Source: Clostridia bacterium
GTDB taxonomy: Bacteria > Bacillota > Clostridia > Oscillospirales > RGIG5554
Direction: 5' to 3'
Assembly: GCA_017507855.1 (NCBI GenBank)
Contig: JAFWAE010000023.1
Location: 1-64,000, forward strand
DNA length: 64,000 nucleotides
Shown: piece by piece, positions 51,130-56,409 of the stretch
How the letters are laid out: the number at the start of each line of letters is the position of its first letter
How positions within the stretch are numbered: the first letter of the stretch is position 1
Notes under the pieces: model-generated
Told to the model about the DNA's origin: nothing
Seen by the model: only the letters and a program-made list of their open reading frames with translations
The model's database searches: none
Program-made: the position numbers and the translations under genes

Positions 51130-51158
51130 TTGACAGAAACCAAACGACATGTTATATT
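51130..51158 (+). promoter_or_regulatory. Promoter of the glycyl radical enzyme gene
   Basis: TTGACA (51130-51135), 17 bp, TATATT (51153-51158). The leader of about 110 nt holds no other clear element. Confidence 0.78.
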
Positions 51159-51275: not shown

Positions 51276-53441
51276 ATGACTGTTTTGGAAAAAGCCCGCA
51301 GATCCATCGACGAAGCCAGCCGCGCCCTAAGGGAAAAAGCCGTGGAAAGCACCTTGGTAGAGCGGTATTTTTTGCTGTACGAAGCCCAAAATGCAGTCAA
51401 GGATCTGCCTCAACCGCTGCAAATGGGCAAGGGCTTGTCTTACGTTCTGAATAACGCCTCCTTACCCATAGCGCCGCACGATCTATTGCTTGGAAGATTT
51501 GACGACCACGTTCCGACCCGAGAGGAACAAGTGCGGTTGGACAAGATCTGGGCTGCCCAGCCAAATGAAAACCCCATTGTCAAATTCAATTCCGGACACG
51601 TAACCGTGGACAGCCAAACCCTGGTAAAAGATGGGATCACAGGGTATATCGTCAAAGCGGAACAAAAAATAGCCCAAACCAAGGACGAAGGCGATAAAAA
51701 AGGGATCTTGAATTATTTAGAGGGGATCAAGTACACCTTTGAGGCCATACGGGATTACGTGGAACGCTACGGCGCGGCGGCGGAAAAAGCCGAACGAAAA
51801 GACTGCGCCGAGGTGTGCTTTTCTTTAGTAAAAGGGGCTCCCCAAACCTTCCGCGAGGCCATGCAGCTGATCTTATTCGTCTATAACGTATATCTGATCT
51901 ATGCCGGAACGGCGGTGGCCTGTCTCAACGTGGGAAGATTGGACGATATTCTTCTGCCGTTTTATTTGCGGGATCTGCAAAGCGGAATTTTAACGGAAGA
52001 AGAGGCCGGATGCTTGATCGATGATTTTTCGGCCAAAATGAGTCTGCATCTGGGGCGCGGGGAGCATCAAATGGCCTATTTGACTCAGGATTATGCCCAC
52101 ACAGGATGGCTTCGCAACCCGGTTTATGAATCGCCCGGATACATCACACTTGGCGGATACAGCAACCGTACGGACCATAAAACCAACCCCCTTTCCCTGT
52201 TGTTTGCCAAGCATATTCATCCCAAGCTTAAAAATCCCATATATATTTGTCGCTGCACAAAGGATTGCCCTGAAGAACTGCTGGATATTTTAAGCGGCAA
52301 GGTGAAAGAAAACGCCTCGCTGATCCTATACAACGACGAGACCGTGATCCCCGCTCATCTGCATATTGGGGTGGAAAAGGAAAACGCGGTCAATTATTCC
52401 GTGCACCCGTGCAATTGGGCAGATATTGACGGCGGCTCGGTGATCGTGGGAACGTGCGGCAAGCCGCTTCCCATAATCTTGGATGACGTGCTGCACTCTA
52501 ACCGCGTTTTTCAAAGCATGGACGATCTATACCTGGCTACGGAAGAAGCCTACGCCGAGCTGATCAAAGGAACGTTTTCTGCCTATCGGGAAAAATACAG
52601 AGGGGACATGCCCTCCTCCTACGACACGTTATCCCTGACGGAATGCTTGAGCGTAGATTGCATAAAAAATGCCGGAAACCTTGAAAAAGACAGGGTCAAA
52701 TATCCTGCGGTATACGTGCTGTTGCGGAACATTGCAACGGCAGCAGATATGCTCAGTGCGATAGACCGACTTGTTTTCCGGGAAAAAAAGTGCTCCTTAA
52801 ACGAGTTGGTCGAAGCGGCGGACAAGGATTTTGAAAACCGCTTGGATCTTTTGAACTGCTGTAAAAAAGCCCCGAAATTCGGAAGCGACGATCCTGTTGC
52901 CAATGCACACGCCGTTCGCTTAATGACCGCACTTTTGGACGTGATCGACAGAGAAGCCACCAACGAAAACGGCGTACGTGACGTGTACACCCTGAACGTG
53001 ACCATCAACGACTCCAACCATTTGCACGAAGGGGCTGCCATGAATGCAACTGTGGACGGCAGAAGAAAAGGGGCTCCCCTCAGCGAGAACCTTTCCCCCA
53101 CCGCAGGGTTTCCTCACAGTGTGACGGAAGTATTGAATTCGGTTTCCAAATTGCCGTTTGACCGGATCCATTCCGGTGCTTTGAATATCAGGTTAAGTAC
53201 GGGCGTTGCCAAGGGGCCCCGTGGGGAAAAAAACATCAAAGCGCTGATCAAAGCCTATTTTTTGCAAGGGGGCATGCAGCTCCAGTTCAGCGTAGCCGAT
53301 ACCGAGGAGTTAAGAAATGCCCAAAAGCATCCGCAGCAGTACAAAGATCTTATGGTACGTATCACCGGATACAGCGCCATTTTTGTGGATATGTCAGAGG
53401 GTGCCCAAAACGAGCTCATACGTCGAGAAGAGCTCAAATGA
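51276..53441 (+). CDS. Glycyl radical enzyme, pyruvate-formate-lyase superfamily, atypical active-site context
   Basis: A 721-aa glycyl radical enzyme, shorter than PFL (about 760) and choline or glycerol dehydratases (about 790-850). The C-terminal glycyl radical motif is VRITGYSAIF with Gly698. The thiyl-radical Cys is most likely Cys379 in NYSVHPCNW. The positions after it are Asn-Trp, where dehydratases and C-N lyases carry x-Glu and PFL a second Cys. The substrate is therefore not a standard PFL, CutC or glycerol dehydratase type. No radical-SAM activating enzyme is adjacent. GAAGGA lies before the ATG, with the promoter 118 nt upstream. A sugar dehydrogenase and an isomerase follow 151 nt downstream. 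Confidence 0.87.
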   Translation: MTVLEKARRSIDEASRALREKAVESTLVERYFLLYEAQNAVKDLPQPLQMGKGLSYVLNNASLPIAPHDLLLGRFDDHVPTREEQVRLDKIWAAQPNENPIVKFNSGHVTVDSQTLVKDGITGYIVKAEQKIAQTKDEGDKKGILNYLEGIKYTFEAIRDYVERYGAAAEKAERKDCAEVCFSLVKGAPQTFREAMQLILFVYNVYLIYAGTAVACLNVGRLDDILLPFYLRDLQSGILTEEEAGCLIDDFSAKMSLHLGRGEHQMAYLTQDYAHTGWLRNPVYESPGYITLGGYSNRTDHKTNPLSLLFAKHIHPKLKNPIYICRCTKDCPEELLDILSGKVKENASLILYNDETVIPAHLHIGVEKENAVNYSVHPCNWADIDGGSVIVGTCGKPLPIILDDVLHSNRVFQSMDDLYLATEEAYAELIKGTFSAYREKYRGDMPSSYDTLSLTECLSVDCIKNAGNLEKDRVKYPAVYVLLRNIATAADMLSAIDRLVFREKKCSLNELVEAADKDFENRLDLLNCCKKAPKFGSDDPVANAHAVRLMTALLDVIDREATNENGVRDVYTLNVTINDSNHLHEGAAMNATVDGRRKGAPLSENLSPTAGFPHSVTEVLNSVSKLPFDRIHSGALNIRLSTGVAKGPRGEKNIKALIKAYFLQGGMQLQFSVADTEELRNAQKHPQQYKDLMVRITGYSAIFVDMSEGAQNELIRREELK

Positions 53442-53527
53442 CGGTTTTCGGTCCGGCGCAAGCGTCCCTTTCGTTTCAAAAGCGAATTTTCGCAAAACAA
53501 ATTTTCTTTTGTTTTTACGGTAATTTC

Positions 53528-53556
53528 TTGATTTTTTTCGTATCATTTGATACAAT
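53528..53556 (+). promoter_or_regulatory. Promoter with overlapping palindrome before the Gfo/Idh gene
   Basis: TTGATT (53528-53533), 17 bp, TACAAT (53551-53556). GTATCA-TT-TGATAC (53540-53553) is a perfect 6+2+6 inverted repeat running into the -10, a candidate operator for a sugar-responsive repressor. No regulator gene is adjacent. Confidence 0.65.
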
Positions 53557-53592
53557 GCACGTATCGCAATATTTTTGTGGAGGTAATCAACT

Positions 53593-54756
53593 ATGGCAGG
53601 AACAACCACCAGCCTGGATGCTTTTAAGGAAAATCACGAATCGGTTTCCGTGGATGCATCCCGCAAACTCCGTGTCGGCATCATCGGAACCGGATGGATC
53701 GCCGGCGCCCACATGCGCGCTTACAAAAACCAACCCGACGTGGAGATCGTTGCAGGTGCCGACCTTGTCCCCGGAAAGGCCGAGGCCTTCTTCAAGGCCT
53801 GGGAGCTTGAGAACGTCAAGTGCTATCCCTCCCACAAGGAGATGCTGGACGACGAAAGCCTCGCCCTGGATGCCGTTTCGGTGTGCACCTACAACCGTCA
53901 GCATGCGGAACCGACCGTCTACGCCCTGAAAAAAGGCGTTAACGTCCTTCTCGAAAAGCCTATGTGCGTTACCACCGAGGAGGCCGTGGAGATCGTTCGC
54001 GCCGAGAAGGAGAGCGGCAAAGTCCTTTCCATCGGCTTCCAGCCCCGCATGGACGAAAACATGAAGATGATCAAAAAGATCTGCCAATCGGGCACTCTCG
54101 GCAAGATCTACTATATTCAAACCGGAGGCGGCAGACGCCGCGGCATTCCCACCCCCTTCGGCACCACCTTTATCGAGGATGAAACGGCAGGTATCGGCGC
54201 TTTGGGCGATATCGGCTGCTATTCGCTTGACATGGTGCTCAACGCCATCGGCTATCCCAAGCCTTTGACGGTCAGCGGCTACAAATCTGCCTATTTCGGC
54301 ACTCGTCCCGGCTACTATCCCGACCACCCCGAGTACGCCGATAAATTTGGCGTAGATGATTTTGCCGCGGCCTTTATACGCCTGGAGGGCGATATCGTCC
54401 TCGACTTCCGCATTGCCTGGGCCATGAATCTCGACACTCCCGGTGACACCATCATTTTGGGAACCGAGGGCGGCCTTCGCATCCCCTCTACCGAGTGCTG
54501 GAACGGCACGGTCGGCGGCGAGATGACCCTGTATCATGAGGTGGCAGGCCTTCAGACCGAAACCAAGATCCCCATCGTAAAGACTCCCGGCGATCTCTTT
54601 GATCTGAAGATCCGCACCTTCCTCGACGCTTGCAAGTTTGGCACAGCCGCTCCCGTTTCGTCTGCCGAGATCCTGTACAACCAAGCCATTATCGACGGGA
54701 TCGCCAAATCCTCGGCTTTGGGCCGCGAGATCACCATCGAGATTCCGGAGGTATAA
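53593..54756 (+). CDS. Gfo/Idh/MocA-family NAD(P)-dependent oxidoreductase
   Basis: A 387-aa dehydrogenase. The N-terminal Rossmann fold has VGIIGTGWIAGAHMRAY (near residue 28) and the conserved LLEKPMC near 115. The C-terminal GFO/IDH/MocA domain follows, with DIGCYSLDMVLNAIG near 205. The first 25 residues are an extra polar lead. Such enzymes oxidise a sugar or inositol hydroxyl to a ketone. GGAGGT lies 8 nt before the ATG. It is cotranscribed with the isomerase 3 nt downstream. Confidence 0.93.
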   Translation: MAGTTTSLDAFKENHESVSVDASRKLRVGIIGTGWIAGAHMRAYKNQPDVEIVAGADLVPGKAEAFFKAWELENVKCYPSHKEMLDDESLALDAVSVCTYNRQHAEPTVYALKKGVNVLLEKPMCVTTEEAVEIVRAEKESGKVLSIGFQPRMDENMKMIKKICQSGTLGKIYYIQTGGGRRRGIPTPFGTTFIEDETAGIGALGDIGCYSLDMVLNAIGYPKPLTVSGYKSAYFGTRPGYYPDHPEYADKFGVDDFAAAFIRLEGDIVLDFRIAWAMNLDTPGDTIILGTEGGLRIPSTECWNGTVGGEMTLYHEVAGLQTETKIPIVKTPGDLFDLKIRTFLDACKFGTAAPVSSAEILYNQAIIDGIAKSSALGREITIEIPEV

Positions 54757-54759
54757 GTT

Positions 54760-55596
54760 ATGAAGCCGTTTCATGTTGGTATCCAACTTTACAGCGTAAG
54801 AGACAACCTTGCCGCCGATTTCGAGGGCACCCTGCGTGCCGTGAAGAACATGGGCTACGACTATGTGGAATTTGCCGGCTATTACGGTGGCAAAAGCGGT
54901 CAAGAGCTAAAATCCCTGCTTGACGAGATCGGGCTGAAATCGGTCTCCGTTCACCAAGGCATCGATACGTTCTTAAACGAGGGCCAAGCCGCCTACGATT
55001 TCTTCAAGGCCTACGGTGTCAAGTACATCGTCATTCCGTGGTTCGACAAAAACAAGCTGGCCGGCACCCCCGCATGGGAAGAGACCAAGGCTGCCTTCCG
55101 CAAGGTCGCCGAAGGGGCCCGTGCCAATGGTATGCAGGTCCTCTATCACAACCATGATTTCGAGTTTGAAAAGGTCGGCGACCGCTACGTCTACGATATT
55201 ATGTTTGAGGAGCTGAAGGGGGTCGTTGATCCCCAGCCCGACACCTGCTGGCTCAATTACGGCGGCGTCGATCCCGCAAAGTATATCCGCAAATACGGCG
55301 ATCGCATCAACGTGATCCACCTCAAGGACTTCGTGTGCACCAAGCTGGCCGCAGGCCCCGTCTACGCTTTGATCGATGAGAACGGCAACGCCATCGACAA
55401 GGGCTCCCAGGAGGATACCGGCTTCCGTTTGGTTCCCCTGGGCCAAGGTCGCAACGACTTTGCCGCCATCCTTGAAGCCTGCGACGACATCGATGCCGAT
55501 CTGGTCATTGTGGAACAGGACAACTTTACCGGCATGACCCCCATGGAGGGCATGCAGACAAGCAGAAACTACCTGAAGGATACTTTCCATCTTTAA
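54760..55596 (+). CDS. Sugar phosphate isomerase/epimerase (TIM-barrel, IolE-like)
   Basis: A 278-aa xylose-isomerase-like TIM-barrel protein: VGIQLYSVRDNL at the N-terminus, VEFAGYYGG, LYHNHDFEFEK near 125, DTCWLNYGG, INVIHLKDF and IVEQDNF near 250, the last two holding metal-binding His and Glu. Ketone-forming dehydrogenases of the Gfo/Idh/MocA type are often paired with this family, as in inositol and keto-sugar catabolism. The 3-nt spacing with GGAGG inside the dehydrogenase end shows coupling. The substrate is unknown. Confidence 0.9.
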   Translation: MKPFHVGIQLYSVRDNLAADFEGTLRAVKNMGYDYVEFAGYYGGKSGQELKSLLDEIGLKSVSVHQGIDTFLNEGQAAYDFFKAYGVKYIVIPWFDKNKLAGTPAWEETKAAFRKVAEGARANGMQVLYHNHDFEFEKVGDRYVYDIMFEELKGVVDPQPDTCWLNYGGVDPAKYIRKYGDRINVIHLKDFVCTKLAAGPVYALIDENGNAIDKGSQEDTGFRLVPLGQGRNDFAAILEACDDIDADLVIVEQDNFTGMTPMEGMQTSRNYLKDTFHL

Positions 55597-55803: not shown

Positions 55804-56058
55804 TTAATTCAACGAAATGCCCTCTGCATTGATTCGAATTGAGTAAAACAAATTAAAAACTTTCTCTTTAGGATTTAACGTGCGATACATATTTATCAAT
55901 CTTCTTTTTCCAACTCTTCGATCAAGTATGGCGAAAATACGAATGATCATGTTTTCACTGTTCATGCTTTCCTCAATGCTTTGATTGTCAAATTCTTCAA
56001 AAGCTTGATAAAAGGCATGCGGACTGAATATGCCTAATTTTAGTGCTGTATCGTCCAT
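55804..56058 (-). CDS. Small protein of unknown function
   Basis: An 84-aa ORF. MDDTALKLGIFSPHAFYQAF, an acidic middle, MIIRIFAILDRRVGKRRLI, then NLFYSIRINAEGISLN. From memory, similar short proteins are scattered in gut Firmicutes, but I know no function. Its start lies 4 bases from the point where homology to the glycyl radical enzyme begins on the other strand, so this is a rearrangement joint. No good ribosome site is seen, so it may itself be a fragment. Confidence 0.5.
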   Translation of the reverse strand: MDDTALKLGIFSPHAFYQAFEEFDNQSIEESMNSENMIIRIFAILDRRVGKRRLINMYRTLNPKEKVFNLFYSIRINAEGISLN

Positions 56059-56061
56059 ATA

Positions 56062-56409
56062 TCTCCAACGGTTGGCTACTCAAAGAGTGTTACCGATGTA
56101 TTGAATTCGGTCTCCAAATTGCCTTTTAAACGAATACATTCCGGTGCTTTAAATGTAAGGCTAAGTAAAGGTATTCTAAAAGGTGTAAAGGGTGAAAAAA
56201 CAATAAAGGCTCTTATTAAATCGTATTTTAAGCAAGGGGGGATGCAACTTCAATTCAGTATAACCGATACAGAAGAATTACGCAAAGCGCAGGCAAAGCC
56301 GGATGAGTATCGTGATTTAATGGTGAGAATAACCGGATACAGCGCAATTTTTGTTGATATGTCAAAGGGCGCGCAGGAAGAGTTTATCCGTCGCGAAGAA
56401 TTGAAATAA
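56062..56409 (+). pseudogene. Beheaded copy of the glycyl radical enzyme C-terminus
   Basis: Residues SPTVGYSKSVTDVL align with SPTAGFPHSVTEVL of the full-length enzyme at 51276-53441. From the TTG at 56101 the two C-termini agree over about 100 residues at about 80% identity, including the intact glycyl motif VRITGYSAIF. Homology stops upstream of 56062, and a TAG lies in frame at 56041. The copy is more AT-rich than the intact gene. It could be a dead remnant, or a stand-alone glycyl radical domain like the YfiD/GrcA spare part. No promoter or ribosome site is visible. Confidence 0.8.

Follow-up and report, generated by a model that had tools for sequence, protein, structure and literature searches.

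Which reaction is catalysed by a glycyl radical enzyme (GRE) whose active-site Cys is followed by Asn and Trp, in place of the Cys-x-Glu (C-x-E) of dehydratases and C-N lyases? The question is raised by a gene in a stretch of 64,000 nucleotides from a Clostridia bacterium (contig JAFWAE010000023.1, assembly GCA_017507855.1), called the window below. An original prediction, made from the sequence alone, proposed that its product, P0001, could represent a new GRE subclass for polyol breakdown. The underlying observation of a GRE with Cys-Asn-Trp is right, and stronger than was stated. The best overall explanation, to which we give an even chance, is a radical dehydratase of sugars or polyols, whose product would be reduced or, in the subfamily of the window enzyme, split by deoxyribose-phosphate aldolase (DeoC). 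The surroundings of the gene in the window are misleading, and those of its relatives are informative.

P0001 matches the Pfam models PFL-like (204 bits) and Gly_radical (78.8 bits), and carries two features by which the GRE superfamily is recognised, a C-terminal glycyl motif (RV/I-x-G-Y/F) and a thiyl Cys on the Cys loop. The glycyl motif is standard, as had been noticed (RITGYSA around Gly698), and the Gly is present in 83 of 83 family members. In pairwise and profile alignments, Cys379 falls on C489 of choline lyase and C433 of glycerol dehydratase (GDH), their catalytic Cys residues, and Trp381 is placed opposite the Glu of their C-x-E. No other Cys of P0001 aligns with the thiyl position, and the contrary outcome envisaged at the start, a different Cys in that place, did not occur. 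Judging from these alignments, Cys379 is very probably the thiyl residue. The claim that the protein is shorter than the known classes was only partly correct: it is shorter than PflB (760 amino acids), PflD (765) and YbiW (810), but C-x-E GREs of 665-719 amino acids exist in the same order.

The Cys-Asn-Trp (C-N-W) motif is not peculiar to the window. When 295 genomes from the same order were searched, C-N-W relatives turned up at 69, 61, 49, 43 and 32% identity, after which identity dropped to other GREs. A scan of 84,980 species genomes, using patterns for a GRGEHQ loop and for the glycyl motif and leaving CNW aside, gave 132 relatives, and 79 loci were kept. These belong to Clostridia (mostly metagenome-assembled genomes from herbivore gut), Planctomycetota, Lentisphaerae/Victivallales, Latescibacterota, Poribacteria, Armatimonadetes, SAR202 and Verrucomicrobia. 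GREs are sensitive to oxygen, and the hosts of this family are uncultured anaerobes, mostly of herbivore gut. Cys379 and Asn380 are found in 83 of 83 family sequences, and position 381 is Trp in 82 of them and His in one (L099), so that the lack of the +2 Glu and of the second Cys of PFL, first described for P0001, holds for the family. Drift does not explain the motif, because 83 homologues recruited without it carry C-N; chance and sequencing error are likewise ruled out by the number of sequences and of genomes from which they come. The residue at +2 is Glu in 13 of 13 other GREs compared from the same order, as it is in E. coli YbiW (C-I-E) and PflD (C-V-E), and PflB has C-C-V-S at the same place.

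A second signature is the loop G-R/V-G-E-H-Q, which is absent from the other GREs compared. Its residues Gly260, Gly262, Glu263, His264 and Gln265 are invariant in the family, and Arg261 is present in 81 of 83 sequences. Pro287 and Tyr289 are also invariant, and His108 is found in 82. In the tree suggested by the original prediction, the family is monophyletic (SH-aLRT 100, stem of 1.48 changes per column), with the caveat that a single C-x-E enzyme, L054, attaches next to it on a long branch. YbiW and PflD group with the C-x-E GREs, apart from the family, and P0001 falls outside the characterised subclasses, so that the placement which was to tell against a new subclass was not observed. In a profile search of 398 genomes of the phylum, the window scored 1175 bits and every other genome 339 bits or less. 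P0001 remains under the cut-offs of all NCBIfam GRE equivalogs (HypD, CutC, HpfG/HpsG, HPDL, IAD and PFL), and its assignment to a named subclass by this route was rejected. Its best scores were 237.8 bits with the PFL2-3 subfamily model (cut-off 678.2) and 217.4 with HpfG (cut-off 1000), and the PFL model gave 71.9 (cut-off 994.2). A plasmid search returned distant GRE matches only, below 31% identity among the matches listed. Being monophyletic, discrete, marked by diagnostic residues and below every NCBIfam cut-off, the C-N-W GREs almost certainly constitute a distinct family, and the proposal of a new subclass is upheld. We found no description of the family in the literature and it is apparently undescribed; an earlier, unnamed cluster may exist in the main GRE network surveys, which lay outside the literature covered.

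An AlphaFold2 model of P0001, built from 82 family sequences, had a mean pLDDT of 94.6 and a pTM of 0.94. All 50 Foldseek matches listed were GREs (2f3o, glycerol dehydratase, CutC, HypD, YbiW and others), with query-normalised TM scores to the solved enzymes of about 0.75-0.82 at 17-23% identity, and the GRE alpha/beta barrel fold is predicted with confidence from this model. The active site appears to be reworked. C-x-E is conserved among GRE eliminases, its Glu being usually the catalytic base (PMC7077986, PMC8473560), and it is replaced in the whole family, by C-N-W or, in the single exception, C-N-H. The adjacent Cys-Cys pair of PFL is absent as well, the CCVS of PflB aligning with P-C-N-W. 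In eliminases, an aromatic residue (Phe340 in HypD, Trp374 in IslA) packs close to the Gly/Cys pair; its counterpart in the alignment is the invariant Pro287. The His of GDH and HypD (His164 and His160, respectively) is retained as His108. The GRGEHQ loop enters the stretch of the HypD substrate-binding loop (Ser334, Asp339), ahead of the same strand. Because the C-x-E Glu is Trp, the aromatic residue aligns with Pro287, Asp residues known from other dehydratases are lost (see below) and the GRGEHQ loop is inserted, we propose a swap, in which Trp381 would fill the aromatic position, and Glu263 and His264, together with His108, would do the acid-base work.

The gene neighbourhoods of the relatives point to the substrate. 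In 37 of their loci the GRE has an activase gene close by, and in 38 an aldo-keto reductase gene. The linkage to aldo-keto reductase characterises two sister clades, where an EamA-like transporter is sometimes added. The window subfamily has another module, made of an IclR regulator, a Zn-alcohol dehydrogenase, an FGGY kinase, an SMP-30-like protein and DeoC. All five genes accompany activase and GRE in L077 and L086; one is missing in L076 (IclR) and in L083 (the kinase), and parts of the module stand beside the GRE in L058, L068, L087, L093 and L112. In genome G223, which also has the C-N-W GRE, the five genes are together on a contig other than that of the GRE. A PfkB kinase takes the place of the FGGY kinase in L078 and L080. 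The DeoC of the GRE operons scores 236 bits against a curated cut-off of 117 and conserves the catalytic Lys/Lys/Asp; 5 of the 6 genomes with an operon DeoC have a second DeoC elsewhere. The operon FGGY kinase barely exceeds the XylB cut-off (385 versus 380 bits) and, because the same genome encodes a stronger, canonical xylulokinase (562 bits), it is probably a specialised paralogue with a substrate other than that of xylulose kinase. Finally, two C-N-W members directly precede a GH95-type gene (one confirmed by Pfam), and others are near GH29, GH43 and alpha-galactosidase genes. These neighbours, which the original prediction could not see, bear out the expectation of a sugar or polyol substrate, which we consider likely.

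The mechanism would start with the usual GRE relay: a radical-SAM activase would form the radical on Gly698, which would take a hydrogen from Cys379, and the resulting thiyl would take one from the substrate. Cleavage of a C-O bond, that is dehydration, of a sugar or polyol, or of its phosphate, would then give a deoxy carbonyl compound; it is towards dehydration that we lean, if only slightly. In the two sister clades the adjacent aldo-keto reductase would reduce this product. For the window subfamily, the most economical route, tentative as it is, would lead from a pentitol or pentose to a 2-deoxypentose or its 5-phosphate, with the FGGY (or PfkB) kinase acting before or after. DeoC would split 2-deoxypentose-5-phosphate into glyceraldehyde 3-phosphate and acetaldehyde, and the Zn-alcohol dehydrogenase would reduce the acetaldehyde. 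The bolder combination, in which the inserted Glu-His-Gln loop has taken over the acid-base function of the Cys loop, and pentitols or their phosphates yield 2-deoxypentoses for DeoC as a route of anaerobic sugar-alcohol fermentation in uncultured gut bacteria, must be considered doubtful. In the literature covered, we found no paper that connects GREs to anhydroglucitol, to pentitols or to DeoC in the proposed sense.

Several observations weigh against a sugar or polyol dehydratase of this kind. Those eliminases that were tested cannot do without the C-x-E Glu, HypD E436Q and IslA E470Q being inactive (PMC7077986, PMC8473560), so that its loss could mean a wholly different reaction. Asp447 of GDH and Asp278 of HypD are lost from P0001 as well. 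The proposed route uses every enzyme of the module except the SMP-30 lactonase-like protein, and only 6 loci of the window subfamily show a linkage to DeoC. Next to the GRE of the window, genes for an activase, DeoC, FGGY kinase and SMP-30 are all missing. The only PflC-type activase of the window genome, which is 86% complete, is on contig C50 beside a different GRE; its DeoC and FGGY genes are on other contigs; and a short SMP-30 query, run with no positive control, had no match in it.

The lost acid residues and the idle SMP-30 gene would both be accommodated if no water were eliminated. The GRE could instead cleave or form a C-C bond, as PFL and the X-succinate synthases do, or epimerise a sugar through its thiyl, the reductase or aldolase acting on the product. 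This alternative, although the strongest, is rather unlikely. The closest GREs by profile and fold are mostly dehydratases and other eliminases (GDH comes first with 310.8 bits, as compared to 174.6 for BSS and 111 for PflB), the operons of GRE, reductase and activase match known GRE dehydratase operons, and the Cys pair of the PFL type is missing; genes for accessory subunits were not noticed among the neighbourhoods listed.

A diverged sugar-phosphate ring-opening enzyme of the YbiW/PflD type (1,5-anhydrohexitol-6-phosphate lyase), working by the same chemistry, would also fit the sugar-linked operons of the relatives, and the structures of YbiW and PflD are among the fold matches. In E. coli, moreover, the aldolase gene fsaA lies near ybiW. 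However, YbiW and PflD retain C-x-E and sit with the C-x-E GREs in the tree, and the C-N-W operons have an FGGY kinase and DeoC, not a phosphotransferase system with a transaldolase-type aldolase. We therefore regard this alternative as improbable.

Equally improbable is that the window GRE is a non-functional relic, left after loss of its pathway. The absence of adjacent activase and pathway genes, and a decayed second GRE copy 2.6 kb downstream, would agree with such a fate, but the open reading frame is intact, its diagnostic residues are in place and a good promoter-like site precedes it. The 69% relative (L067) likewise lacks a nearby activase, and its GRE, located behind an aldose-1-epimerase gene, is intact. 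The search of the full genome that the original prediction had called for did reveal an activase, that on C50, which is 37-43% identical to many activases of C-N-W loci. In L068, as in L073, a short C-x-E GRE stands beside a C-N-W GRE and an activase; because the two GREs of L068 precede a single activase, activation in trans is plausible for the window enzyme by analogy.

The features of the window are collected in Table 1. The original prediction took the Gfo/Idh dehydrogenase and IolE-like isomerase genes that follow the GRE as evidence on its substrate, and this part did not hold. Orthologues of the Gfo/Idh, at 57-78% identity, occur in 53 of 196 other genomes of the order; no GRE adjoins them at the dehydrogenase loci examined, several of which have the TIM barrel gene. 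In the genomes holding the two closest GREs (G015 and G020), Gfo/Idh and GRE are on different contigs. Because its orthologues lack an adjoining GRE at the loci examined, and are on another contig in these two genomes, the Gfo/Idh-IolE pair seems to be a separate functional unit. That the GRE works on an inositol or sugar acid together with this pair is very improbable: besides their adjacency in the window, a Gfo/Idh gene does stand beside the GRE in L077 and L083, but the L077 copy is 34% identical to that of the window, and a consensus scan places a second promoter-like site between GRE and Gfo/Idh. The pair was thus rejected as pathway partner.

Table 1. Features of the window around the C-N-W glycyl radical enzyme gene
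Feature	Position	Strand	Remarks
GRE of the C-N-W family, P0001	51276..53441	+	721 amino acids; Pfam PFL-like and Gly_radical
His108 codon	51597..51599	+	aligned with GDH His164 / HypD His160
G260-R-G-E-H-Q265 codons	52053..52070	+	alignment; insertion not present in glycerol dehydratase or choline lyase
Cys379-Asn380-Trp381 codons (HPCNW)	52410..52418	+	putative thiyl Cys and replaced +2 Glu; alignment to CutC C489, GDH C433
Gly698 codon	53367..53369	+	predicted glycyl radical site in RITGYSA; Gly_radical domain
Promoter-like site TTGACA-17-TATATT upstream of the GRE	51130..51158	+	consensus scan, 11 of 12; predicted only
Gfo/Idh dehydrogenase and IolE-like TIM barrel genes	53593-55596	+	start 151 bp after the GRE (53442-53592 between)
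Second C-N-W GRE, a remnant reduced to the glycyl radical domain	56056..56409	+	tblastn; 117 amino acids, 76% identical to P0001 605-721

The second GRE copy consists of an open frame of 121 amino acids, with its upstream part lost. A functional spare part is less likely than a remnant, because there is no ATG at its start. An 84-amino-acid open reading frame on the opposite strand (55805-56059) abuts it and may itself be a gene fragment, in which case this would be a small gene graveyard.

Other observations were made along the way. Tandem duplicated C-N-W GRE genes are found in L083 (4714-9117), L106 (8083-12506) and L137 (9986-14407), which suggests substrate diversification or heterodimers. 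The only DeoC gene found in the window genome (C42:72721-73479, L178) is followed by a gene for an MtlD-like polyol-phosphate dehydrogenase, which again hints at a connection of polyols with DeoC. Short GREs of a second clade, with the motif GCIENF and 665-767 amino acids, recur in the order (C50:107828-109963 on the minus strand, L035-L037, L039, L048, L056); the member scanned is below the NCBIfam cut-offs. Just outside the window, its own genome has a PFL split before the glycyl radical domain (C8:65776-68142; L007 15777-18143). The large part, of 702 amino acids, scores 1092 bits with the PFL model, above the cut-off, and the small part is a GrcA3-type protein of 80 amino acids, which has an ATG and a AAAGGAGA ribosome-binding site of its own. 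In a sample of 98 genomes from the order, 5 others have short stand-alone open reading frames 87-94% identical to it, and in most of the rest it is fused.

By the criteria of membership P0001 is a GRE outside the eliminases, PFL and YbiW/PflD, while probably dehydratase-like in its working. A coherent family spread over several phyla, in which C-x-E is replaced throughout and a new invariant loop is present, amounts to a natural experiment on the requirements of GRE chemistry. Because its genes are associated with those for DeoC, a sugar kinase and reductases, a small set of substrates to be tested can be drawn up for this orphan family from the herbivore gut. The same association suggests an anaerobic route, as a carbon or electron sink, in enzymes for which the family models searched give no more than a generic PFL-like match.

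Among known systems, the best PDB profile match is the B12-independent glycerol dehydratase of C. butyricum (PDB 1r8w/1r9d, 310.8 bits), which has in common with P0001 the fold, the positions of thiyl Cys and glycyl residue, and the His retained as His108. Identity is about 22%, however; Glu435 of GDH is replaced by Trp381, Asp447 is not kept, and GDH lacks the GRGEHQ loop. HypD (trans-4-hydroxy-L-proline dehydratase) and CutC share the barrel and the Cys and Gly loops, and HypD also the His, whereas P0001 is without C-x-E and without Asp278, Asp339 and Phe340 of HypD. Resemblance to the X-succinate synthases (BSS, MASS) is weak (174.6 bits with the BSS profile), and no accessory small-subunit genes were noticed in those neighbourhoods of the relatives that were listed. 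The short GCIENF enzymes of the same order, also uncharacterised, are similar in length and may adjoin a C-N-W GRE and its activase (L068, L073), but they form a separate clade, with C-x-E and without GRGEHQ. YbiW and PflD, which cleave C-O bonds in phosphorylated sugar derivatives (PMC12441222), are likewise GREs of gut bacteria that act on sugar-derived substrates and feed further sugar metabolism, though they keep C-x-E and occupy a separate branch of the tree. In HpfG-HpfD-HpfE-HpfH, a GRE dehydratase of dihydroxypropanesulfonate, a reductase, an exporter and an activase make up an NADH sink (PMC11489063). Although the HpfG-type profile is far below its cut-off on P0001 (217 versus 1000 bits), the logic of this operon resembles that of the GRE, aldo-keto reductase, EamA-like transporter and activase of the sister clade.
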